Both the position numbers and the translations under genes were made by a program. From a virus, in IMG/VR virus record IMGVR_UViG_3300043331_000996, positions 1-21,360 of that record: a stretch of DNA of 21,360 nt. One strand, 5' to 3'. Position 1 is the stretch's first letter. Each line of letters opens with the position of its first letter. The notes below the pieces were generated by a model. That model made no database searches. It was not told the DNA's origin and saw only the letters and a program-made list of their open reading frames with translations. Shown piece by piece: positions 126 through 20,695 of this stretch.

Positions 126-1229
126 TCAATCGTCCAGCCTCTGTTTACCACTCCGCCCCGAGGGTCGTTTACCACTCGGCGTTCTTTTCCCGTTCTGTTC
201 CAGCTTCAGAATGGCGGCCTTGGCCAACCGCTTCTGATCGGCCGCCTTGGTATAGCGCTGCACCTCGGCCAGCGACTTGTGTCCGGTAACGGACATAATC
301 TCGTGCTCGCTGCAGCCAGCGTCCGCCAGGTCGCGCGCCGCCACCTTTCGCAGCCCGTGCATCACGCAATCGTCCGGCAGCCCGGCATTCTCGATCGCGT
401 CGGCAAACCACGGGCTCAAACCCTCCCCGTCGAAACTCCCCCCGTCCGCCTTGGTGAGCAGGCTCATATGTCCCTGCTCGCCGCGGCCCAGCTCGGCCAT
501 CAGCTCCCTGTGCTCAGCAACCCACAGCTCCGCGCCTGTCTTCTGTTGCACCACGCGGATCATGCCGCCGCGGCGATGCGCGCGCGTCATGGCGGCAAGA
601 TCCCCGCAGCGCTGTCCGGTGTAGCGGGCCAGCGCATAGGCGCGACGCTGCATGGTGCCGGCGGGCCAGCGGTGCTCAAAAGCCATTAGCTCCTCCGGCG
701 TCCAGGCCCGGTGCTCGCCCAGCCTGAACAGTTTGATGCGCAGGGCGGGATTATCATCGCGGTGCTCGTTGTCGACCGCGAAGGCCATCAGCGTGCGCGC
801 CACGCTCACGACCATGTTGGCCATGCCGGGCGTCTCGGAGCGCGCATCGCGCCACTTCTTGATGTGCTTGCGCCTAATCAGCGCGACAGGCCTCTGCCCG
901 CCCTTCTTGATCAGCCAGCCGAGCACGTAGCCGTAAACACGTTTCGATGCAGGCTTCAGACCGCGCCACTCGGGCGAGGCCTGATATTCCAGGATCAGCG
1001 CACCCATGGATTGCGGCGGGTAGACGGCAGGATTCTCGACCAGCGGCGCCTTGGGCTCGCTGGCGGCCTTGGCCTCATGATAGGCCGCCATCCATTCCTC
1101 GGAATGCGCCTTGCCCGGCAGACGCCAATAGCGGCCGTTGCGGCGGAAGTACCAGTAGGCCCGGCCGTGCCGGTCGCGCTGCTCCTTGACGTAGGGCAGC
1201 GGCGGAACTTTGCCCATGGCCTCCCCCAT
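126..1229 (-). CDS. int: Tyrosine recombinase / phage integrase
   Basis: This 367-residue protein is a site-specific tyrosine recombinase that would integrate and excise the prophage. The catalytic set is visible: Arg207 in YTGQRCGDL, Lys230 in QQKTG, His291-x-x-Arg294 in MHGLRK, His317 in TGHKS, and the nucleophile Tyr326 in EVQRYTKA. Residues about 70-165 form the usual core-binding, SAM-like domain, and the first 45 residues (DRHGRAYWYFRRNGRYWRL) resemble the N-terminal DNA-binding segment of Rhizobiales phage integrases. A basic tail follows residue 345. The ATG overlaps the stop of the upstream gene as TGATG, so it is the last gene of the leftward operon; an internal ATG at residue 5 is an alternative start. 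It lies directly beside the host HIT gene, as expected for an integrase at a prophage end. Confidence 0.95.
   Translation of the reverse strand: MGEAMGKVPPLPYVKEQRDRHGRAYWYFRRNGRYWRLPGKAHSEEWMAAYHEAKAASEPKAPLVENPAVYPPQSMGALILEYQASPEWRGLKPASKRVYGYVLGWLIKKGGQRPVALIRRKHIKKWRDARSETPGMANMVVSVARTLMAFAVDNEHRDDNPALRIKLFRLGEHRAWTPEELMAFEHRWPAGTMQRRAYALARYTGQRCGDLAAMTRAHRRGGMIRVVQQKTGAELWVAEHRELMAELGRGEQGHMSLLTKADGGSFDGEGLSPWFADAIENAGLPDDCVMHGLRKVAARDLADAGCSEHEIMSVTGHKSLAEVQRYTKAADQKRLAKAAILKLEQNGKRTPSGKRPSGRSGKQRLDD
143..178. repeat. 11-bp direct repeat at the integrase 3' end
   Basis: GTTTACCACTC occurs at 143-153 and again at 168-178, a centre-to-centre spacing of 25 bases. It encodes part of the basic integrase tail (SGK...SGK on the minus strand). 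The position close to the presumed attL makes an integrase or excisionase arm-binding role conceivable, but simple duplication within the tail is an equal explanation. Confidence 0.5.
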
Positions 1230-3429: not shown

Positions 3430-3812
3430 GCCGCTTCCCTCACATCGTCCAGGACCGCGCCTACCAGCTTGTCGTCCACGATGCGGTCGATCAGCAGGCG
3501 CACCAGCGCGTTGACGTGCAGGCCGCGCGCTTCCGCGTCCGGTTGCAGGGATTGCAGCACCTCGGTGTAGAAGACGACCGTGCGCCGGTCCGCGATCTCC
3601 GCATGGGCGATCCGTCTGAGCGCGTTATCCTCGTGCAGCTCACAGCCGTCGTCGCGATAGCGCGGCTCGTGCCCGCGCACTGCGCACTGGCCGGGGACCT
3701 GGCGGCGGACGCGGCCCCGCCAGTGATGGTCCTGGAACGGCGCCAGGAACCATGCGCAACAGCCGCAGGTGCCGGAGCGGATGCGATTGAAGCAGGTGGG
3801 ATCGGCTCTCAT
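3426..3812 (-). CDS. Cys-rich phage protein with possible zinc site, unknown function
   Basis: A 128-residue protein. Residues 16-60 hold C16-G-C18-C19, C43, C57 and H60 in a layout (CxCC...W...C...CxxH) like small Cys-rich zinc modules found in phage hypothetical proteins; metal binding is inferred. The C-terminal half (ARGLHVNALVRLLIDRIVDD) is helical and resembles the helices of ribbon-helix-helix-type proteins, without a clear strand. The start overlaps the upstream stop as ATGA at 3809-3812, and the stop is similarly coupled to the next gene. Confidence 0.6.
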   Translation of the reverse strand: MRADPTCFNRIRSGTCGCCAWFLAPFQDHHWRGRVRRQVPGQCAVRGHEPRYRDDGCELHEDNALRRIAHAEIADRRTVVFYTEVLQSLQPDAEARGLHVNALVRLLIDRIVDDKLVGAVLDDVREAA

Positions 3813-4381
3813 GCAGCCGTCCTCATCTGCTGCCGGCCGCTCTTGCAGCTCGCCTTCACCGTCTCGATGAACTCCTCGGGATCGGCACCCGGCACGATCT
3901 CCTCGCAGATGACGTGCAGCACCTTGTCGAACAGCACGGCCATCTCGTCCGACATGGTGGCCGTGAAGCGTACCGACTTGGCCGTGCGCTCCACGAACTC
4001 TCCCGTCCGCGGATCGTAGGCCACGCCGACGTAGCCGTCCCGCGCACGCAGCCCGATGGCCAGCGCCTTGCCCGCCGCCTCAGCCGTCGCCATCGTGAGC
4101 TTGCCGACGTGCACGCGGCGCTCGTCGAAGTGGTCGGCGCGGATCAGTAGATATTGCTTCAGCGCCTGCCATGTCGGCAGGATGATGCCGGCGCGCTGGT
4201 TGTCATGGGCGTAGTGGCACATTGCGTGAAAGAGATTGTTCTGGTGCACCGAGCGCTTGTGCGTGATCTTCGCCGCGCACTCCTCGCCCGCCTGGAACGT
4301 CCTCTCGGCCAGCTCCAGGTCGAGCCTGGTCGCCGTCTGATAGGTGCCGCCGCCGCGGTAGATGAGCCGCTGTTCGAGCAT
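3809..4381 (-). CDS. DUF1367/NinB-like phage protein
   Basis: A 190-residue protein starting MLEQRLIYRG, chosen because this ATG overlaps the preceding stop as TGATG and has AGAGG about 8 bases upstream; a longer open frame to 4531 would bury the previous gene. Residues 40-58 (THKRSVHQNNLFHAMCHYA) and 135-164 (KSVRFTATMSDEMAVLFDKV then LHVICEEIVPG) follow the pattern of DUF1367 proteins: (R/K)xxxxxxKFxAL, then KS(I/V)xF..MxxxxFxxxxxxVxxxxxxxxxPG. The first segment is also reminiscent of lambda NinB/Orf recombination mediators. A role in phage recombination or replication is therefore possible but not shown. Confidence 0.6.
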   Translation of the reverse strand: MLEQRLIYRGGGTYQTATRLDLELAERTFQAGEECAAKITHKRSVHQNNLFHAMCHYAHDNQRAGIILPTWQALKQYLLIRADHFDERRVHVGKLTMATAEAAGKALAIGLRARDGYVGVAYDPRTGEFVERTAKSVRFTATMSDEMAVLFDKVLHVICEEIVPGADPEEFIETVKASCKSGRQQMRTAA

Positions 4382-4647
4382 CAGTGCAGCCTCTGCTGGC
4401 ACGCCAACTTGATGGAGCGCGGGTCGTCCGGCCGGCCGGCTGTGGTGACGATGATTGATCGCCCACACAGCAGGCAGCGCACGGCATAAAGGCCGCAGCG
4501 CTTGGCCGGGTAGGGCAGTTGCACGGTGCACCCCAGCTTCCCATTGGTCTCGTCGAGGTCGATGCCGTTGGGATATTCAGGATTGGGCGCGCATTGCGGC
4601 TCCCGTCCGCGGTCGATCCATTGGATTTGGAACCTGCCGGTCATCAA
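4381..4647 (-). CDS. Small conserved phage protein with Cys pair
   Basis: An 88-residue protein. The C-terminal part, YPAKRCGLYAVRCLLCGRSI then TTAGRPDDPRSIKLAC, matches a small conserved hypothetical found in many proteobacterial prophages (pattern C-G-x-Y-x-x-x-C-x-x-C-G...TTAGRxDDPR; recalled). Cys51, Cys58, Cys61 and Cys83 could hold a metal. The N-terminal part (DRGREPQCAPNPEYPNGIDL) is also typical of these proteins. It overlaps the upstream gene as ATGA and the downstream one as TGATG. Biochemical role unknown. Confidence 0.75.
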   Translation of the reverse strand: MMTGRFQIQWIDRGREPQCAPNPEYPNGIDLDETNGKLGCTVQLPYPAKRCGLYAVRCLLCGRSIIVTTAGRPDDPRSIKLACQQRLH

Positions 4648-5024
4648 TTGTCATGCTCCGGATCGAAATCGAGGCCGCCCTGGTGATCCACATCGAAGCG
4701 GGACTCGAATGCCTTGCAGACTCCATCGAAGTGCTTGAACTCCAGCGCCGCCAGATCCCGCAATTGAAAGACGACGTGCGCGGATAACTCCGTGGCTTCC
4801 TTTTGGGCCTCAAGGCTTGGGAAGTCCTCGCGCTTGGAATAGATATGGATGCCGCCGTCAATCAGCTTGATCACGCCCCAGGTCGGCATGTGGTACTTCC
4901 ACATGCTGCGCTCCTTGGAGACAACGTGCACAACGCCGGCCATGTCGTATTTTTTGAGCACGCCGACGATCTCCGCCATGCACTCGCGATAGTCCTTATT
5001 CTGACGCTCACCCCAACCCATCAT
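4644..5024 (-). CDS. Unknown phage protein
   Basis: A 126-residue protein starting MMGWGERQNKDYRECMAEI. The ATG at 5024 is chosen because it overlaps the stop of the upstream gene fragment as ATGA and follows AGAAGG at a proper distance; the open frame continues to 5159 but that part is out of frame with the upstream gene. The body looks like a soluble alpha/beta protein (GVVHVVSKERSMWKYHMPTW, then IKLIDGGIHIYSKR) with an acidic C-terminus (DFDPEHDN). No family is recognised. Confidence 0.7.
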   Translation of the reverse strand: MMGWGERQNKDYRECMAEIVGVLKKYDMAGVVHVVSKERSMWKYHMPTWGVIKLIDGGIHIYSKREDFPSLEAQKEATELSAHVVFQLRDLAALEFKHFDGVCKAFESRFDVDHQGGLDFDPEHDN

Positions 5025-5131
5025 GCCGCCTTCTTCGCTTGGGGATGCTTGCGTGCGAGCCGCAGAGCTTTGTCCAGCCCGACCAGCGACAGCCACACCT
5101 CCCGGTCGCGCTCGTCGTCCTCGATGCTGCA
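5021..5131 (-). pseudogene. 3' remnant of a leftward phage gene, 5' end missing
   Basis: On the minus strand the frame from 5131 to the TGA at 5023-5021 encodes SIEDDERDREVWLSLVGLDK then ALRLARKHPQAKKAA. It has a protein-like composition and ends in an ATGA overlap with the next gene, as throughout this operon, so it is a genuine gene end. There is no ATG in this frame, and a TGA lies immediately upstream at 5134-5132; a GTG at the VWLSL valine would give only about 25 residues without a spaced ribosome-binding site. The 5' part therefore seems lost at a junction near 5130. Parent family not recognised. Confidence 0.6.
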
Positions 5132-5503
5132 TCACTCCGTCGGATGTACGCACACGCATGCGCTTCGCGGGCCCACGTCATGGTTCACCGCATGATGGAC
5201 GTGATTGAGCAGGAGGAGTGTCCGCACAAGGCGCGAGTGAAGATGGACGCGCTCAAGTGGATGGCCGGCAAGCTCAACCGCGCCGACTTCGGGGATGAGC
5301 CTACTCAGCCGGGTGTGTCGGTGACCATCAACAATGATGGTGGCTCAGCCCTGATGGAGGAGATCAGGCAGCGCCTGGCCCGCAAGCGGCAGGCCCTCTC
5401 AGGCAAAAGCATGCTTTCCGGGACCGGGGGGCCGGTTGAGAGCCGGGGGGCGGGGGAGGGGGAGGGGGCCACTCGACCTCCCGCTCTATCCTCGGACGCG
5501 TGA
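5132..5503 (+). pseudogene. Terminase small subunit, N-terminally truncated
   Basis: In the plus frame ending at 5503, SLRRMYAHACASRAHVMVHR then MMDVIEQEECPHKARVKMDA and LKWMAGKLNRADFGDE follow the C-terminal half of small terminase subunits of the HTH type: xxYAxAxxxxAxxxxxxIxxI...(R)xDAxKWxxxKLxxxxYGD. The N-terminal helix-turn-helix that recognises the packaging site should precede this, but the sequence upstream of about 5130 instead belongs to the opposite-strand gene fragment. In-frame ATGs at 5144 and 5180 could start a product of 119 or fewer residues, neither with a good ribosome-binding site. The C-terminal 35 residues are low-complexity Gly/Glu/Pro sequence from a G-rich tract. It sits just upstream of the packaging and portal genes, as expected. 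Confidence 0.65.
5445..5468 (+). other. G-quadruplex-like tract at the terminase small subunit 3' end
   Basis: Four G runs of 6, 5, 5 and 5 bases are separated by single C, A and A bases, with another six-G run at 5426-5431. This fits the canonical G4 pattern with one-base loops. It lies near the end of the small terminase gene. In P22 the packaging (pac) site lies inside the small terminase gene, so a packaging or regulatory role is conceivable but unproven. Confidence 0.6.
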
Positions 5504-5658
5504 GCCCTGCAGAAAACCCACGCGCGCGTGGGGTCTGTGAGAGGTGGAGGGGATGGAGCCGTGAGGGGGCGCCGCATCAGTATAAGCGCCGCAAGCGACG
5601 CTTGAAGCAGGCTGTCACATTCAGTGTCAAGATGGCCCGGTATGCCACGGGTTTCTGA
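5500..5658 (+). CDS. Small basic protein, possible upstream part of an interrupted gene
   Basis: A 52-residue frame starting at GTG 5500, which overlaps the terminase stop as GTGA. It contains a strongly basic stretch (HQYKRRKRRLKQAVTFSVK) and ends MARYATGF before TGA 5656. The frame stays open through 5671-6018 apart from that single TGA, and MARYATG is identical to the first seven residues of the protein at 10026. Two readings are possible: a separate small basic protein, or an interrupted gene whose own start is the ATG at 5632. No Shine-Dalgarno sequence precedes the GTG. Function unknown. Confidence 0.4.
   Translation: MSPAENPRARGVCERWRGWSREGAPHQYKRRKRRLKQAVTFSVKMARYATGF
5513..5532 (-). 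terminator. Candidate intrinsic terminator, leftward
   Basis: The 16-base palindrome at 5517-5532 (CCCACGCG/CGCGTGGG) forms a stem of at least six pairs with a CGCG loop. Read on the minus strand it is followed directly by TTTTCT (complement of 5511-5516). No T tract follows on the plus strand. It would stop leftward transcripts before the early operon. It lies inside a small rightward frame, so it could also be coincidental. Confidence 0.4.
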
Positions 5659-5670
5659 ACGGGGGATGGA

Positions 5671-6018
5671 GTGCCGACGGGTCTCGATCTGCGCGGTCTC
5701 GGTATGAGATCACAGCTTACTGGAACGGCGCTCCAGGGAACGCGGCCGATAAGGGTTGCCGACGTCGATGTTGGGGACCCTGGGGAAGCGTGGAATGAGG
5801 TCAACCGCCTTCGAGGCTATGGGGACGCCACATATCATGGGCCGCCGGAGATTTACGGCAATGCGGCTGAGCGACAGCGCATTATCAATGAGGAGGCGGC
5901 GAACGTGACGAATGAGATGGAGGCGGAGATTCTGCACCAGCTGGCGCTGAAGTGGGGCGTCGCCTCTCCGTTTGGGAACGGGGCGCCGATGGGACCGCCG
6001 CTGCCGGCCGAGAAGTGA
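5671..6018 (+). CDS. Small virion-operon protein with TGxxL motif, unknown function
   Basis: A 115-residue protein from GTG 5671, preceded by GGGGGA. The N-terminus has two copies of a short motif, PTGLDLRG (2-9) and LTGTALQG (16-23), shared with the proteins at 10026 and 10538. The rest is helical and polar (ERQRIINEEAANVTNEMEAE then ILHQLALKWGVASPFGNG) and ends Pro-rich. The same frame is open upstream to 5500 apart from one TGA at 5656, so the original gene may have started at ATG 5632 (MARYATGF, stop, TGDGVPTGLDLRG). No family is recognised; its position between terminase subunit genes suggests a packaging or head role. Confidence 0.65.
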   Translation: MPTGLDLRGLGMRSQLTGTALQGTRPIRVADVDVGDPGEAWNEVNRLRGYGDATYHGPPEIYGNAAERQRIINEEAANVTNEMEAEILHQLALKWGVASPFGNGAPMGPPLPAEK

Positions 6019-6470: not shown

Positions 6471-7853
6471 GTGAGCCTGGCGAAAGAGCTGGCCATCCTC
6501 AGCGAGGCTGAGAGCAACGAGGTTCTGGCGGAGCTGACGCCGGAGCAGCTGGAAAGCCTGGCGTATGACTGGGCGACGTGGGCGCGGCCCGAGCAGCTGC
6601 CGCCCGAGCTGGGCAACGACGGCATGCCCTGGAACACGTGGGTCTACCTGGCCGGCCGCGGCACCGGCAAGACGCGCGCGGGAGCCGAGTGGCTGAGGGC
6701 GGAGGTGTGCGGGGCCACTCCGCTGGGCGCCGGACGGCGCAAGCGCTTTGCGATCATCGGCGAGACGTCGAAGGACGTGCGCGACGTTCTGATCGAGGGG
6801 GAATCGGGGCTGCTGGCCGTGCACCCGCGCGACTTCCGGCCGATCTACAAGCCCAGCGTGGCGACCTTGGAGTGGCCGAACGGGGCGCGGGCGACGCTTT
6901 ACAACGGCACCGAGCCCGATCAGCTGAGGGGACCGCAGTTCGACGGCGCGCTGGTCGACGAGCTGGCCAAGTACCGCTACGCGCAGGACACCTGGGACAT
7001 GCTGCAATTCGGCTTGCGGCTCGGGAATCATCCGCGCGCGATGGTGACGACGACGCCGCGGCCGATCAAGCTGCTCAAGGATCTGGTGAAGGATCCCAAG
7101 TCGGCCGTCACGCGCGGCAAGACGGAGGACAACGCGGAGAACCTGGCGGCCTCGTTCCTGCTGCAGGTGCGCGCGCGGTACGCCGGCACGCGGCTGGGTC
7201 GGCAGGAGCTGGATGCCGAGCTGCTGGAGGACGTGCCGGGGGCCTTGTGGCGGCGCTCAAACCTGGACGAGTACCGGGTGAAGCCGGCCGGGCTGCCGGA
7301 CATGAAGCGAATCGTGGTGGCGGTCGATCCGGCGGCGAAGGCGAAGGACAGCCAGCGCGGGGAGAACGGAGCGGAGACCGGCATTGTGACATGCGGGCTC
7401 GGCGTCGACGGCCGCGGCTACGTGCTCGACGATTCAACGACCATCGAGGGGCCGGACAAGTGGGGCAGGCTGGCGGTGGCGGCCTACGACCGCAACCAGG
7501 CCGATGCCATCGTGGCGGAGATCAACAACGGCGGCGACATGGTGCCGTTCGTGATCCGGAGCGTGCGCGATTCGATCAAGGTCATCGTCGTCACGGCGTC
7601 CAGAGGGAAAGTGACGCGCGCGGAGCCGGTCTCCGCGCTCTACGAGCAGGGCCGGGTGTCCCATGTCGGCAGCTTTGCCGCGCTTGAAGATCAGATGTGC
7701 GCATTCACGGTCACCGATGCCGACGATGTGAGCCTCAAGGACCGCACCGACGCGCTGGTATGGGCCTTCACCGAGCTGTTTCCGGCGCTGGTAACGGTGA
7801 AAAAGCGCAAGTGGGCGGACAAATGGGCCGGCCGCCGCGGCTGGATGGGGTGA
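6471..7853 (+). CDS. Terminase large subunit, packaging ATPase/nuclease
   Basis: A 460-residue motor protein that translocates phage DNA into the prohead and cuts it. The ATPase domain has Walker A GRGTGKTR at 62-69, Walker B GALVDE at 159-164, and the coupling motif TTTPRP at 193-198. The nuclease domain has acidic residues in VAVDPAA (Asp286), AEINNGG (Glu350) and DRTDALVWAF (Asp427), the RNase H-like set of the T4 gp17/Terminase_6 group. The GTG at 6471 fits the usual N-terminus (SLAKELAILSEAE); the open frame reaches further upstream only as a shadow of the preceding gene. The stop lies 4 bases before the portal GTG. All catalytic motifs appear intact. Confidence 0.95.
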   Translation: MSLAKELAILSEAESNEVLAELTPEQLESLAYDWATWARPEQLPPELGNDGMPWNTWVYLAGRGTGKTRAGAEWLRAEVCGATPLGAGRRKRFAIIGETSKDVRDVLIEGESGLLAVHPRDFRPIYKPSVATLEWPNGARATLYNGTEPDQLRGPQFDGALVDELAKYRYAQDTWDMLQFGLRLGNHPRAMVTTTPRPIKLLKDLVKDPKSAVTRGKTEDNAENLAASFLLQVRARYAGTRLGRQELDAELLEDVPGALWRRSNLDEYRVKPAGLPDMKRIVVAVDPAAKAKDSQRGENGAETGIVTCGLGVDGRGYVLDDSTTIEGPDKWGRLAVAAYDRNQADAIVAEINNGGDMVPFVIRSVRDSIKVIVVTASRGKVTRAEPVSALYEQGRVSHVGSFAALEDQMCAFTVTDADDVSLKDRTDALVWAFTELFPALVTVKKRKWADKWAGRRGWMG

Positions 7854-7857
7854 AATA

Positions 7858-10026
7858 GTGGCCTATGCCGCGTTGGCGACCCGCGACGAGCTGAGGGGCA
7901 GCGACGACCTCGTAAAGGAGGCGGTGGAAGTCGCGGAGGCCAACTACAATCATGACCGCGAGAACCGCATGGAGGGCATCCGCGACCTCCAATTCCTGGC
8001 CAACGACCAGTGGGACGCGCGCGACCGGCGCCAGCGCGAGGCGGACGACCGGCCGGTGCTGACGGTCAACCGGCTGATCCAGCCGGTGAAGCTGGTCGCC
8101 AACTCGATCCGCTTCTCGGTGCCGGGCGTCAAGACCGTGCCGGTGGACCGCGAGGGCGACGAATCGACGGCGTGGGTGCTGGGCGGGCTGATCAGGCAGA
8201 TCCAGCGCCAGTCGATGGCGACATGGGTCTATTCGGTGGCGACGGGTCACGCGGCGGCCTGCGGCATCGGCCATTTCCGCGTGCTCAGCGATTACGTCGA
8301 CGACGACGTTTTCGACCAGGAGCTGAAGGTCAAGCTGATCCCGCACCCCTTCGCGGTGCTGTGGGACGCGGCCGCCCAGGAGCCGGACCGCTCGGACGCC
8401 TGCAACTGCCTCGTTCTGGAGTTCATACCGCCCAAGGAGTTCAAGCGGCGCTATCCGGGCGCGGCCGCGAGCGACTTTCAGGGCTCGAGCGCCATCCTGC
8501 CGGGCGGCAATTTCCAGTGGTTCCGGCCCGAGGCGGTGGTGATCGCGGAATTCTGGCGCCGGGTGCCGTGCGAGAAGAAACTGGGCCAGCTCGCCGACGG
8601 CAGCGTGATCGACCTCACCAACGTCAAGGCGCTGCCCGGAGGCATGCAGGTGGTGAGGGAGCGGACCGTCAACAGCTACCGCGTCGAGCAGAGCCTGGTG
8701 TCGGGGCGCGAGGTGCTCGAAGGCCCGAACGAGTGGGCGGGCAAGTGGATTCCCATCGTGCCGGTGCTGGGCAACGAGATTCCACAGGAGTCGACGGTCG
8801 TGCGGCACGGGCTCGTCCGCTTCGCCCGCGATCCGCAGAGGATGTATAATTACTGGCGTTCGCAGTCGGCGGAATGGATCGGGCAGGCGGCCAAGGCGCC
8901 ATGGCTGGCTGAGGCCGAGCAGATCGAGGACTACAAGGATCTGTGGGACACGGCGAACACCACGCCGCGGCCCTATCTGCTTTACAAGGGCGACCCGCAG
9001 AACCCGCAGAGGAAGCCAGAGAGGATGCGCCCAGCCGAGCCGCCGGCGGCTCTCTGGCAGGAAGGCAACATCTCCTCCGACGAGATCAAGGCGACCACGG
9101 GCATGCAGGACGCGAGCCTGGGGGCGCGATCGAACGAGATTTCCGGGCGGGGCATCGAGGCCAGGCAGCGACAGGGCGAGATCGGCAACTACGAGTTCAT
9201 CCATAACCTTGGGATCAGCCTCAACCACACGGGCCGCATCCTCCTCGACCTCGCGCCCAAGGTCTACGACACCAGCCGCACGGTGCGCATCCTCGACGAA
9301 TTCGAGAAGGAGCACTTCGTGCCCGTCAACGCCGTCGCCTACACCGAGGACGGCCAGGCGGTGCTGGTGCATGACCTGACGGCCGGCAAGTACGACGTGG
9401 CCATCAAGCTTGGGCCGTCGTTCCTGACGCGGCGCGAGGAGGCGGCGGCCCAGCAGGTGGAGTTCCTGAAGCTCAACCCCGAGGCCTTCAGCCTGGTCGG
9501 CGACATCGTGGCGGAGGAGCAGGACTGGCCGGGCGCCTCCAAGATCGCCAAGCGGCTGAAGCGCGCCATCCCGCCCGACATCCTGGGCGACGATGCCACC
9601 GAGCCGCCCAAGCCGCCAGACCCGCTGATGGTCGAGGGCGCGAAGCAGGAGGTGCGCGAGAAGAAGGCGAGCGCCGACAAGAAGGAGGCCGAGGCGCGGC
9701 GTGCGCATGCCGAGGCGGAGCTGGCCGGCGCACAGGCCGGCAAGCACGCCGCGGATGCCCATCTGGCGGTCGCCAAGGCCTTCCGCGAGCGCGTGGGCGC
9801 TCTTGTCGATGCCTCTCCGCAGGGCGATCCAGGCGCGGCGCGGCGCGAGGAGGAGATGCATGCCGCCGAGCTGCGGCACGAGGCGGAGATGCATGCCGCC
9901 GACATGGCCAAGCGGGGAGCGGAGGTGGAGCTGACACGTACCAAGGCCATGCGCGAGCGCATGGGGGCGAGGGTCGACGTGCACAACGCGACCAAGCCTG
10001 AGCCGAGACCGAAGGGCTCGAAGTAG
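7858..10026 (+). CDS. P22-type portal protein
   Basis: A 722-residue protein, close to the 725 of P22 gp1, that forms the dodecameric channel through which DNA enters and leaves the head. Diagnostic stretches are the N-terminal NYNHDRENRMEGIRDLQFLA followed by NDQWDARDRRQREADDRPVL and TVNRL, the central EFWRR, and MYNYWRSQSAEWIGQAAKAP. About the last 140 residues are a charged Ala/Glu/Lys/Arg helical region, matching the long C-terminal helical barrel of P22-type portals. A 15-base direct repeat in this tail encodes EMHAA twice. It starts at GTG 7858, and its TAG overlaps the next GTG by one base (TAGTG). Terminase and scaffold neighbours agree. Confidence 0.93.
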   Translation: MAYAALATRDELRGSDDLVKEAVEVAEANYNHDRENRMEGIRDLQFLANDQWDARDRRQREADDRPVLTVNRLIQPVKLVANSIRFSVPGVKTVPVDREGDESTAWVLGGLIRQIQRQSMATWVYSVATGHAAACGIGHFRVLSDYVDDDVFDQELKVKLIPHPFAVLWDAAAQEPDRSDACNCLVLEFIPPKEFKRRYPGAAASDFQGSSAILPGGNFQWFRPEAVVIAEFWRRVPCEKKLGQLADGSVIDLTNVKALPGGMQVVRERTVNSYRVEQSLVSGREVLEGPNEWAGKWIPIVPVLGNEIPQESTVVRHGLVRFARDPQRMYNYWRSQSAEWIGQAAKAPWLAEAEQIEDYKDLWDTANTTPRPYLLYKGDPQNPQRKPERMRPAEPPAALWQEGNISSDEIKATTGMQDASLGARSNEISGRGIEARQRQGEIGNYEFIHNLGISLNHTGRILLDLAPKVYDTSRTVRILDEFEKEHFVPVNAVAYTEDGQAVLVHDLTAGKYDVAIKLGPSFLTRREEAAAQQVEFLKLNPEAFSLVGDIVAEEQDWPGASKIAKRLKRAIPPDILGDDATEPPKPPDPLMVEGAKQEVREKKASADKKEAEARRAHAEAELAGAQAGKHAADAHLAVAKAFRERVGALVDASPQGDPGAARREEEMHAAELRHEAEMHAADMAKRGAEVELTRTKAMRERMGARVDVHNATKPEPRPKGSK

Positions 10027-11954: not shown

Positions 11955-13226
11955 ATGTCAAACGCCTTCAACGTCCACAAGATCATCGCCAACGAGGCCC
12001 TGTATTGGTTCGAGAACGAGCTGGTGCTGGGCAACCTGGTCTGGCGCGGCTACGAGCGCGAGTGGCGCTCGATGAACGGCCACCGGGTCGGTGACAACAT
12101 CGACATCGACCGGCCGGCGCGCTTTATCTCCGTCAACGGCCCCGATATCAGCGGCCAGGTGCAGGACGTCGTCTACGGCAAGAAGAACATCAAGCTCAAC
12201 ATCCAGAAGACGGTGCCCTTCCAGTTCGACGCCCGCGGGCTTACGACCGATGCCGATATCCGGCGCGTGGGCGAGGAGTCGATCAGGGCCGCCGCCTCGC
12301 GTCTTGCTCAGGACGTGGAAAGCGCCATTGCCGGCATCTACTGGCAATTCGCCAACGTGTTCGGCACGCCGGGCACGCCGGCGACGGTGACCAAGGTGCT
12401 GGGCACCGGCGGCGCCATCCTCACCAACCTCGCGGTCGAGATGCCGGGCCGCAACGCCGCGCTTGAGCCCAACGTCAAGGTCGAGTTCGCCGATCAGCTC
12501 AAGAGCCTGGCCAACACCGGCAAGGAGCGCGCGGCCCTGGAGCGCACCAGGCTGGGTCCGCTGCACAACTTCGATACCTACGAATCAGCCTCCATCGCCG
12601 TGCATACCGCGGGCGACTGGCAGGGAACGGTGCTCGTGCAGGGTGCGGGCCAGGCCTCGACCTTCGCGCTGACCAAGGACACCTGGACGCAGAACTTCAA
12701 CATCGACGGCTTCACGACCGCCACGGCGGCCCTGAAGAAGGGCGACTGCTTCACGATTGCCAACTGCTTCGAGGTCAATCCGGGAACGCTGCAGTCGACC
12801 GGCCGCCTGCGCCGCTTCGCGCTGACGGCGGATGCGGCGGCGGTGGCGAGCGCGGCGACGGTGAACATCACCCCGCCCATCATTCCACTCACCTCCGGCA
12901 CTGCGGCCGACAAGGCCAACGCGACGGTGACCGTGGCGCCAGCGGACAACGCGGTCATCACCCCGATCTTCGGCACCTCGGCTCCGACGGTGGGCGCGCA
13001 GTACCTGCAAAACCTGCTGTTCCACAAGAAGGCGATCAGCCTCGTGATGCGGCCACTGCAGCGGCTGGAGAGCTTCGTTGTGTGGGAGCAGAGGAACCGC
13101 AAGGGCCTGTCGCTCACGCTGTCGAAGGGCGGGGACATCCTGAAGCACTCGGAAGTGTGGCGCCTCGATGCCCTGTTCGGGGTTGATGTACTGCACACCG
13201 ACCTGGGCTTGAGGCTGACCAACTGA
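11955..13226 (+). CDS. Major capsid (coat) protein, P22 gp5-like
   Basis: A 423-residue coat protein, close to the 430 of P22 gp5, forming the icosahedral shell with an HK97-type fold. The N-terminus MSNAFNVHKIIANEALYWFE, then NLVWRGYEREW, NGHRVGDNIDIDRPARF, GKKNIKLNIQKTVPFQFD and ARGLTTDADIRRV match the P22 coat family pattern. A beta-rich middle (about 195-330) with Ala/Thr-rich stretches could include an insertion domain. The C-terminus (VWRLDALFGVDVLHTDLGLR) is typical. It begins 11 bases after the scaffold stop, and its TGA overlaps the next ATG as TGATG. Confidence 0.93.
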   Translation: MSNAFNVHKIIANEALYWFENELVLGNLVWRGYEREWRSMNGHRVGDNIDIDRPARFISVNGPDISGQVQDVVYGKKNIKLNIQKTVPFQFDARGLTTDADIRRVGEESIRAAASRLAQDVESAIAGIYWQFANVFGTPGTPATVTKVLGTGGAILTNLAVEMPGRNAALEPNVKVEFADQLKSLANTGKERAALERTRLGPLHNFDTYESASIAVHTAGDWQGTVLVQGAGQASTFALTKDTWTQNFNIDGFTTATAALKKGDCFTIANCFEVNPGTLQSTGRLRRFALTADAAAVASAATVNITPPIIPLTSGTAADKANATVTVAPADNAVITPIFGTSAPTVGAQYLQNLLFHKKAISLVMRPLQRLESFVVWEQRNRKGLSLTLSKGGDILKHSEVWRLDALFGVDVLHTDLGLRLTN

Positions 13227-14149: not shown

Positions 14150-15364
14150 GTGGCCTCCGCACTGCTCGCCAACCGCGTCAAGGTCAATACCGCAACGACA
14201 GGCACCGGCACCGTCACGCTCGGGGCCGCCTCGTCCAACGCCTTCTGCACGTTCGCGGAGGCCGGCATCGCCAATGGCAATGTCGTCAGCTATCTGATCG
14301 AGGAAGGGACCGACTTCGAGATCGGGCGGGGCACCTACACGTCCGCCGGCACCACGCTCTCGCGCGATACCGTGCTGTTGTCCAAGATCGGCGGCACGGC
14401 GGGCACCTCCAAGATGAATCTGGGCGGCGTCGCGGTGGTGTCGATCACGGCACCCAAGGAAGATTTGGACGTAAACGACTTCACCGAGGATACCAGCCCC
14501 GACCAGGCCAACGATTTCGCCTGGGTGCATGACGCCTCGGCGGCGATGAAGAAGAAGGTCAAACTCAACAAGTTCAACACCGTCGACCGCCAGCAGTTCG
14601 ATTCGTCGGGCACATGGACAAAGCCCGCCTTCGGCGCCTTTGCGCTCATCCAGGCATGGGGCGGCGGCGGCTCCGGCGGGCGGGGCGGGGCTGGCGACGC
14701 GGGCGGCGGCGCGGGCGGCGGCTCCTACGTCGAGCGCTGGATGCTGCTCTCCGATCTGGGCTCCTCGGAGACCGTGACGATCGGCGCTGGCGGGGCCTCG
14801 CGCACGACCGACGATACTGATGGGCAGGCCGGCGGCAACACCACGTTCGGCGCACACGTTACGGCTTATGGCGGCGGCGGCGGCTCGGGCTCAGGCACGG
14901 CTAACGGCGGCGGTGGCGGCGGCGGAATGCTCGGAGCTGGCGCTTCCTCGGCCGGCTCAAGCACGGGAGGAGCTGGGGGCGCACCCAAAACGGCCACGGG
15001 TCCAGTTGGCGCCGGAGGTGGCGGCGCTGGAGGCCAGGGAGGGAGCGGTACTGCAGCTGGGTCGATAACAGAACACGCCTTCATGGGCGGCGGGGGAGGC
15101 GGTGGCGGAAGCGAAGTCGCGCCGACCGGGAACCAGGGTGCAGGCATGACGTCGATCTATGGCGGAGGCGGGGGAGGCGGCGGCAGCTCGACGACAAATG
15201 CAGCCGCCGGTGGCAGTTCCCTGCATGGCGGCGCGGGCGGCGCGGGCGGGTTCGATGCGAACAACGCCGTTGCCGGTACGCAGCCCGGCGGCGGCGGCGG
15301 CGGCTCCGAGACGGGCAACTCCGGCGCCGGCGCGGCCGGCCGCGTGATCGTGACGGTGTGGTGA
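14150..15364 (+). CDS. Glycine-rich tail fibre / receptor-binding protein
   Basis: A 404-residue protein with three parts. Residues 1-105 are a beta-rich virion-attachment-type domain (NGNVVSYLIEEGTDFEIGRG, then TYTSAGTTLSRDT) seen at the N-terminus of fibre proteins in alphaproteobacterial phages (recalled). Residues 110-170 are a linker ending in FDSSGTWTKPAF...LIQAWG, the usual lead-in of glycine-rich adhesin domains. Residues 171-398 are dominated by Gly runs alternating with short polar loops, as in polyglycine-II sandwich adhesins, and the chain closes GRVIVTVW. The variable loops between glycine runs would bind the host receptor. It starts at GTG 14150, with GGAAG 9 bases upstream. Confidence 0.85.
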   Translation: MASALLANRVKVNTATTGTGTVTLGAASSNAFCTFAEAGIANGNVVSYLIEEGTDFEIGRGTYTSAGTTLSRDTVLLSKIGGTAGTSKMNLGGVAVVSITAPKEDLDVNDFTEDTSPDQANDFAWVHDASAAMKKKVKLNKFNTVDRQQFDSSGTWTKPAFGAFALIQAWGGGGSGGRGGAGDAGGGAGGGSYVERWMLLSDLGSSETVTIGAGGASRTTDDTDGQAGGNTTFGAHVTAYGGGGGSGSGTANGGGGGGGMLGAGASSAGSSTGGAGGAPKTATGPVGAGGGGAGGQGGSGTAAGSITEHAFMGGGGGGGGSEVAPTGNQGAGMTSIYGGGGGGGGSSTTNAAAGGSSLHGGAGGAGGFDANNAVAGTQPGGGGGGSETGNSGAGAAGRVIVTVW

Positions 15365-15371
15365 GGGCGTC

Positions 15372-15869
15372 ATGCTCGGCTTCTGCCCCATTGCCGCAAC
15401 GCCGCTGGCGTCATTGCCGGGCGGCGCGGGGAATGGAGTTGGCACCGCCGCCGGCGCCGCGACCGTCTCTGGAGCGCTGGCGGCCACGGCCGGCTTGGCC
15501 GGCACATCCGCCGGCCTTGCGACCGTCTCTGGCACTCTCGCGGCAATTGCGGCGGCAGCCGGACTCTCGCAGGGCACGGCGACCGTCCTCGGGTTCCGGT
15601 TCTTCGCCTTGGAAGGTGCGGGCCTGGCGGCCGGAAGCGGCCTGGCGGAGGCCGTTGGCGAGGCAGCGACGAAACTGCCCCGTCCAATCACCGAATCCAA
15701 CCAGCTGCTGCGCGCCGACGCGCTCACGCATGCAGCCGTCATCGCCCAGGCGCTCACTGAGTCCAGCCAAATGCTGCGCATTGATGAGCTGACGGAAACA
15801 GCCGCCCTCGGCCAGGCTCTCAAAATCACCGATACCGTGCCGATCATTCGCACAACCAGGATGTTCTAA
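15372..15869 (+). CDS. Repeat-built small phage structural protein
   Basis: A 165-residue protein. The start, MLGFCPIAATPLASLPG, resembles small fibre/tail-region proteins of Caulobacterales/Rhizobiales phages (MFGFxPLAxxPLA; recalled). Residues 25-74 contain three units with exact 20-residue spacing marked by GAATVSG (28), GLATVSG (48) and GTATVLG (68). Residues 106-160 contain two clear 22-residue units (ITESNQLLRADALTHAAVIA... and LTESSQMLRIDELTETAALG...) and a degenerate third (ITDTVPIIR). Such repeats suggest an extended fibrous segment. It starts 8 bases after the fibre gene and ends 2 bases before the next start. Function not known. Confidence 0.65.
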   Translation: MLGFCPIAATPLASLPGGAGNGVGTAAGAATVSGALAATAGLAGTSAGLATVSGTLAAIAAAAGLSQGTATVLGFRFFALEGAGLAAGSGLAEAVGEAATKLPRPITESNQLLRADALTHAAVIAQALTESSQMLRIDELTETAALGQALKITDTVPIIRTTRMF

Positions 15870-19201: not shown

Positions 19202-20695
19202 ATGCCTACCGGCGTCGACCTGGTGCGCCTGCCTTGGTTCGAATACCCGGCCAACGCCAAGCTCGACTTCGGCCCTCTTGAGCGCGCGCTGACCCAGAAC
19301 ATCAATGCTGGCTTCCGGCAGGCGCAGGGCGAGCGCGACCAGCAGCGCATCGGACTGGAGGAGCAGCGCGTCGGCTATGAGGGCGAGCGGGTGGGCCTGG
19401 AGCGTCAGCGCCTCGCCGCCGGTCAGCAGGAGCGCAACCGCCAGGAGCAGCAGCGTCAGCTCACCGTCCTCGGCAACATGGCGGAGGTGGTACGCGGCAT
19501 CCAGGATCCCGAGCAGCGCAAGACGGCATGGGGGCGGCTGGTGCAGGGCTATCCACAGCTGCCGGGCCTGTTGCAGAGGTACGGGCAGGACCCGGCCGAT
19601 CATGTGAACGGACCTGACTTCATTATCGCCCAGACCCGCGACCCGCTGCAGCGGCGGGCGACCGAGGCCTACGTCGACAGCGCCACGGAGCGTTCGCGGG
19701 CACGCGCACTCGATGCCGAGACGCGGCGCGTGCAGGAGCAGCGCCGGCTCTACAATCAGTTCGAGGACCGGCTGGGCACCAATCCGACGCCGGAGCTGTG
19801 GGAGCAGGAAAGCCAGCCGGGCGGCATCCTCCACGCCCTATTCCCCGCCGGGCAGATCCCGCCTTTCAGCGAGGCGCCGCGGATTATCCAGCAGGTGCAG
19901 ACGCGCAGGTCGCAGCTGCCGATTCCGTCGCAGGATGAATTGGCCGAATTGGGCCTCAATCCCGCACAGGTGCAGTCGGCCAGAACGCAGGCGGCCTTGC
20001 GCAGACTGTTTGGCTCGGCGGGTCCCGGCTATTATTGGCAGATCGACGAGAGCGGCCGCGTGCGGCGGGTGCAGGAAGGCCGCGAGGACGCCCGCAATCC
20101 CATCTCGACTCCACAGATCGAGTTCAACCTGGAGCAGCTGCGCGACGTGCGCGCGCTACTGGCGGGGACCGTCAATGCCCAGGGCAGGCTCGACACCAGG
20201 GGCACCTCTGGCCCCATTGCGCGCGGTGCCTCGCAAATTCCGCTGATCGGCGGCTATCTCGCGCCGGCAACAAACGAGGCCTTCCAGGCTGCCCAGCATG
20301 CGGCCCTCAACCTCTCCTATGCCCTCTCGGGGCGCCAGATCGGTCAGATTGAGCAGGGACGCATCCTCGACATGTTCGTGCCCAAGCCGGCGGACAGTCC
20401 CGAGATTTCCGCCTTCAAGCTCAATGCGGCCGTCGGGCTGTTCGAGCGGCTTTTGGAGGCGCGCGGGCGCCCGCCGTCCGAGCGCGCCGCCATCTTCGAC
20501 AGTGAGCTGGTGCGGCAGGCGCGCAATCTGCGCCGGGCGCGCGAACTCGAGGAAAGCCGCAGATCGGGGCGACCGGCCGCACCGGCACAGGCACCGGCCT
20601 CCCCGCAGCCGCCGGCCGCAGCGCCCGCCGCACCGGCAAGCCCGGCCGGCGATCTGTCCGACGATGAGCTGCTGCGGCGGCTTGGCGTGAAGTAA
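19202..20695 (+). CDS. Candidate DNA-ejection protein with heptad-repeat N-terminus
   Basis: A 497-residue protein starting MPTGVDLVRLPWFEYPANAK, 4 bases after the preceding stop. Its N-terminus shares the PTGxDL motif with other proteins of this operon. Residues 38-88 are a charged coiled coil with tandem heptads RIGLEEQ, RVGYEGE, RVGLERQ and RLAAGQQ from residue 49. The middle (90-450) is mostly helical without a recognised enzyme motif. About residues 455-485 are a Pro/Ala linker, and the chain ends DLSDDELLRRLGVK, an acidic/leucine terminal peptide of a kind seen at C-termini of phage internal virion proteins (recalled). Position corresponds to P22 gp20. No catalytic residues identified. 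Confidence 0.7.
   Translation: MPTGVDLVRLPWFEYPANAKLDFGPLERALTQNINAGFRQAQGERDQQRIGLEEQRVGYEGERVGLERQRLAAGQQERNRQEQQRQLTVLGNMAEVVRGIQDPEQRKTAWGRLVQGYPQLPGLLQRYGQDPADHVNGPDFIIAQTRDPLQRRATEAYVDSATERSRARALDAETRRVQEQRRLYNQFEDRLGTNPTPELWEQESQPGGILHALFPAGQIPPFSEAPRIIQQVQTRRSQLPIPSQDELAELGLNPAQVQSARTQAALRRLFGSAGPGYYWQIDESGRVRRVQEGREDARNPISTPQIEFNLEQLRDVRALLAGTVNAQGRLDTRGTSGPIARGASQIPLIGGYLAPATNEAFQAAQHAALNLSYALSGRQIGQIEQGRILDMFVPKPADSPEISAFKLNAAVGLFERLLEARGRPPSERAAIFDSELVRQARNLRRARELEESRRSGRPAAPAQAPASPQPPAAAPAAPASPAGDLSDDELLRRLGVK

Follow-up and report, generated by a model that had tools for sequence, protein, structure and literature searches.

Back-to-back truncation of a putative exonuclease gene and a small terminase gene in a P22/Sf6-like phage record

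The window analysed here, a linear sequence of 21,360 bases, is an entire IMG/VR virus record that shows no host flank, and it raises the question of how two divergent genes, each without its 5' part, came to abut back to back at about positions 5124-5133. A first-pass annotation made from the sequence had pointed to this double truncation and had proposed either a single central deletion or an assembly chimera as its cause; the truncation itself was confirmed, since both 5' parts are indeed missing there. The left arm of the record is read leftward and carries a tyrosine integrase, small genes and a NinB-like gene, while the right arm is read rightward and carries the remnant of the small terminase subunit (TerS), the large subunit (TerL), a P22-type portal, a P22-type coat and more virion genes (Table 1). 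The best explanation for the contig, which we consider likely together with a real central deletion, is a temperate P22/Sf6-like podovirus related to the IMG/VR records G002-G004. Because the record shows no host flank, the label of prophage given to it earlier is not demonstrated. As to the small gene g4647, a PHROG match suggesting a holin was weak (E 0.016) and was not believed.

Table 1 Features of the window and of the corresponding region of the intact relative G002 (IMGVR_UViG_3300038421_000138)
Feature	Record	Position	Strand	Support
Tyrosine integrase, left end of record	window	126..1229	-	PF00589, E 2.7e-12
NinB-like recombination mediator	window	3809..4390	-	PHROG 319, E 4.8e-06
g4647, small gene of the left arm, function unknown	window	4644..5024	-	67% identical homologue in G002
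Likely PD-(D/E)XK recombination exonuclease C-terminus, ~36 codons, 5' part missing	window	5021..5131	-	C-terminus match to G004
Junction	window	5124..5133		TerS similarity starts; minus-frame TGA
TerS remnant: oligomerisation core and C-terminal tail, without DNA-binding domain	window	5126..5503	+	72% identity with L004 TerS in the shared part
Terminase large subunit (TerL), intact	window	6471..7853	+	PF03237, E 1.6e-27; PF17289, E 8.6e-12
P22-like portal protein, intact	window	7858..10026	+	PF16510, E 6.1e-166
P22-like coat protein, intact	window	11955..13226	+	PF11651, E 3.2e-47
g4647 homologue	G002	286-672	-	
TerS	G002	15068-15700	+	
Rest of nuclease	G002	interval		PDDEXK_1, E 7.4e-06
Rad52-like annealase	G002	interval		Rad52_Rad22, 5.7e-16
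Repressor	G002	interval		HTH_3, 3e-09
Small Cro/YdaS-like regulator	G002	interval	opposite	weak match
RusA	G002	interval		2.9e-30
Primase	G002	interval		Toprim, 9.2e-10
ATPase	G002	interval		AAA_25, 1.2e-25
Outer-membrane beta-barrel protein	G002	interval		4.4e-10
DUF932-like gene	G002	interval		below its cut-off

The two truncated genes

The minus-strand frame ends in a TGA at 5023-5021, overlaps the next gene as ATGA, and stays open up to a TGA at 5134-5132 without a start codon. These features had been read correctly in the first-pass annotation, and the GC content by codon position (0.73/0.43/0.81) adds a coding character to the frame. Its 36 residues alone, which are too short for such scans, gave no family match in Pfam or PHROG; a comparison with phage and plasmid records returned nothing meaningful, and a degenerate DNA search found no match. 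Against all loci, the best match was the C-terminus of the PD-(D/E)XK nuclease of G004. In a dedicated C-terminus test this pair scored 52, a value reached by none of 5,000 shuffles, and the G004 C-terminus ranked first of 2,787 distinct ORF C-termini, with the next score at 38. The homologous C-terminus of G002 falls in the same register but aligns weakly (44 of 5,000 shuffles). In both relatives the nuclease follows the Rad52-like gene, one gene before NinB in G004 and two genes before g4647 in G002, and the NinB-like gene of the window has a homologue in G004 (39-40% identical). Because the C-terminus match and the gene positions agree, the fragment is likely, although not certainly, the end of a phage PD-(D/E)XK recombination exonuclease, whose catalytic core is absent from the remaining codons. 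An exonuclease profile found no further contig among the viral contigs and no match in 398 genomes of the Methylosinus order and six genomes with a related TerL, so that these host genomes gave no intact copy; among named phages, the relatives of the exonuclease are distant only.

The plus-strand frame that closes at 5503 matches the Pfam profile Sf6_terminase (PF20901) only from position 40 of 106 (E 2.7e-10) and the TerS family PHROG 1482 only from position 55 of 147, in keeping with the earlier statement that this TerS begins in the middle of its conserved region and lacks its helix-turn-helix domain. The TerL of the window is 79-90% identical to those of L002-L005, and the close relatives used here, L003, L004, L005 and L006, were found via TerL (68-82% identical). 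All four have a whole TerS, of 223, 210, 210 and 217 residues, respectively. The match of the window to the profile built from the relatives covers positions 91-208 of 212, and its alignment with the L004 protein (210 aa) opens with AASLRRMY at residue 85 of the latter. For this L004 protein, AlphaFold2 with a five-row alignment predicted N-terminal helices at 28-36, 38-53, 58-66 and 71-84 and long core helices at 86-113 and 117-139, with a block-mean pLDDT of about 80-97 in the helical region and a whole-model mean of 69, both ends being disordered. The relatives' sequence profile matches residues 20-117 of Sf6 gp1 (E 6e-10), and a fold search with the predicted L004 structure placed six Sf6 gp1 chains on top, with modest scores (best E 0.015). 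The relatives resemble Sf6 gp1 (PF20901; PDB 3HEF, 4DYC, 4DZJ) in profile, and the L004 protein does so in predicted fold; unlike gp1, the copy in the window is without the part equivalent to the N-terminal DNA-binding domain. Judged from these matches, the window's TerS can be classed as Sf6-type, with an oligomerisation core, then a variable C-terminal tail, and a gene upstream of TerL. TerS proteins consist of an N-terminal helix-turn-helix followed by an oligomerisation core (PMC9611059; PMC6854486). Given this published architecture, the predicted helices and the start of the alignment, the remnant has lost its DNA-binding domain and kept its core, with the cut at the domain boundary.

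The two truncations meet at one place. DNA similarity to L004, the nearest relative, sets in abruptly at window position 5133 and the TerS protein similarity at codon 5126, and the TGA closing the minus frame sits within the TerS-derived sequence, as a junction would give. Formally, the plus frame extends without a stop to a TTG at 5039. This TTG was rejected as the true TerS start, because the upstream codons lie opposite the exonuclease frame, in antisense, and show no similarity to any TerS. The first in-frame ATG lies at 5144, with no recognisable Shine-Dalgarno-like sequence before it. An inverted repeat, GATGC-T-GCATC (5-bp arms, 5123-5133), spans the junction; it is short and probably due to chance. 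On comparative grounds, both genes are cut at a single point and their juxtaposition is more than chance, because TerS is full-length in four of four close relatives and both cut genes are whole, 12-14 kb apart, in two.

One reading of the short TerS makes it an inherited form that works, belonging to a TerS family that has no DNA-binding domain. The position of the cut at the domain boundary is in its favour, and so is the small terminase gp1 of the gene transfer agent RcGTA, which works as a TerS without such a domain (PMC6854486). A wider search gave 19 viral TerS loci, four of which are the close relatives. In the other 15 and in L037, which was found by profile, an open frame extends beyond the shared block on its upstream side, by about 45 to 134 residues. 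Each frame was taken from the first start codon that follows a stop, so that the true starts may lie later; these 16 more distant loci include several near-duplicates. None of the four close relatives and none of the 16 more distant loci has a TerS cut at the window's point, so the short form does not look ancestral, and the condition named in the first-pass annotation as refuting its reading, homologues with an equally short TerS, gave a negative result. The whole gene in all four close relatives, the extension by at least about 45 residues in the distant loci, the cut in the neighbouring exonuclease at the same point and the missing Shine-Dalgarno-like sequence before ATG 5144 together largely refute an inherited short TerS, which by these comparisons seems very improbable.

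Two further observations concern the surroundings of TerS. A conserved stretch of ~50-80 bp lies just downstream of the gene (AGCGCCGCAAGCGACGCTTGAAGCA...GTCACATT..GTGTCAAG; window 5569-5646, L005 5222-5300, L004 4544-4593). It is 79-81% identical between the window and the two relatives, contains, in the window, the word TGTCA twice at a distance of 12 bp, and is a candidate regulatory or packaging site. Upstream of TerS, three relatives encode a similar outer-membrane protein (L004 211-870, L005 1104-1898, L003 789-1544); that of L004 is a beta-barrel (PF13505), and these proteins could alter the lysogen surface.

The interval in intact relatives and the origin of the joint

In G002 and G004 both cut genes are complete and stand in the same order and orientation. 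The points equivalent to the fragment start and the TerS cut are 13,944 bp apart in G002 and 12,282 bp apart in G004 (13.9 and 12.3 kb), which supports the single central deletion proposed earlier. This comparison with intact related phages, suggested in the first-pass annotation, also allowed the content of the interval to be read (Table 1). That annotation had listed repressor/Cro, replication and lysis genes as missing: repressor, Cro-like and replication genes do occur in the relatives' interval, together with recombination genes, whereas no lysis gene could be named with confidence there. The comparison thereby fixes the place of the recombination, regulation and replication block in this phage group. 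As a separate observation, an open frame built from many DSAVDSAV/YSAVGSAV repeats is cut off by the end of the G004 record (L085 9853-10656).

We consider it probable that the central region was lost in one real deletion, that is, in DNA and not in the assembly. A single illegitimate recombination event would have removed the centre of the phage. It would have broken the leftward PD-(D/E)XK exonuclease gene on one side and the rightward TerS gene on the other, the latter where its DNA-binding domain gives way to the ring core. By comparison with the relatives, about 12-14 kb would be gone, containing the remainder of the exonuclease, the Rad52-like annealase, the repressor and Cro-like regulators, RusA, the primase, the AAA ATPase, the start of TerS and others. 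Open reading frames are kept on both sides of the junction (integrase, NinB-like gene, g4647, TerL, portal and coat), and since the flanking genes examined are still open, the event may be recent.

The same joint could have arisen as an assembly or library chimera, in which pieces of one phage genome, or of close relatives, became connected in silico or at amplification and the real phage keeps its central region. The window is a lone metagenomic record, and an exact search for the 34-bp junction among viral contigs, a collection that leaves out the window's own record, gave no match. Moreover, a single sample can contain related phages: L002 and L004 both come from 3300038421. On the other side, no ambiguous bases (Ns) were found in the 21,360-bp record, and no 9-mer is common to the 71 bp on the left side of the junction and the 5' region of the intact TerS of L004, the relative compared. 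Among viral contigs, g4647 has a single homologue, in G002, which is also where the nearest TerS occurs. The two sides of the junction therefore point to one phage lineage, in the orientation that a simple deletion would give. Tetranucleotide distances between the left and right arms (0.22-0.23) resemble those within the right arm (0.21-0.25), in a test that discriminates poorly: an unrelated bacterial locus, L089, lies just as near to the left arm (0.24), and the joining of two related phages from the same sample could escape it. On this circumstantial evidence the chimera is disfavoured, and we rate it as unlikely while still giving it some weight. An ordinary deletion in a defective phage is the most likely origin of the joint.

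Packaging and comparison with known systems

With a deletion of this kind, the element would be unable to replicate, to regulate itself or to begin site-specific packaging without a helper; a self-sufficient phage is not expected, because the repressor, the replication genes and the DNA-binding domain of TerS are gone. The loss of site-specific packaging initiation is suggested by work on other TerS proteins (PMC4737164; PMC6854486). The TerS gene of P22 itself contains the pac site (PMC9611059), and therefore the packaging site might be gone here too.

RcGTA gp1 (rcc01682) shows that a TerS need not have a DNA-binding domain to serve in non-specific packaging, and the ring-forming core of that protein is what the remnant resembles (PMC6854486). 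In contrast to RcGTA, the window has no GTA-type cluster and carries a P22-like portal and coat and an integrase instead; in contrast to gp1, the remnant has no evident start signal and arose with the truncation of a neighbouring gene. By gene content, then, it would not be placed among the GTA-type TerS proteins: the domain is absent, yet the structural cluster is P22-type with an integrase. The remaining core could in principle be put to a use like that in a gene transfer agent, but this is unsupported, because there is no evident start signal and the repressor and replication genes are also gone. That the deletion is real and maintained, that the TerS core is made and used, and that DNA enters a P22-like particle regardless of its sequence seems to us extremely improbable as a whole; if true, non-selective packaging by a TerS core would bring the phage a step closer to a gene-transfer-agent-like condition.

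Defective (deletion) prophages and phage deletion mutants are a known kind of element. The window is like them in having one internal deletion, flanking genes that remain open, and lost regulation and replication; it is unlike them in that its joint is known only from one metagenomic record. The finding is ordinary in kind. The record represents an incomplete phage layout and should serve neither as a reference genome nor to supply a TerS sequence. A real joint would provide a natural TerS deletion at a domain boundary, usable for tests of packaging specificity.

Two minor observations were made in the right part of the record. ARAGORN called a tRNA-Ala of 94 bases at 20554-20647 on the minus strand, inside a protein-coding gene, and this call is probably false. 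In addition, several proteins of the virion arm, whose genes start near 5671, 10026, 10544 and 19196, begin with a similar motif (MPTGLDL, MARYATGADL, MARMMTGASL, MPTGVDL), possibly an N-terminal feature common to virion proteins.
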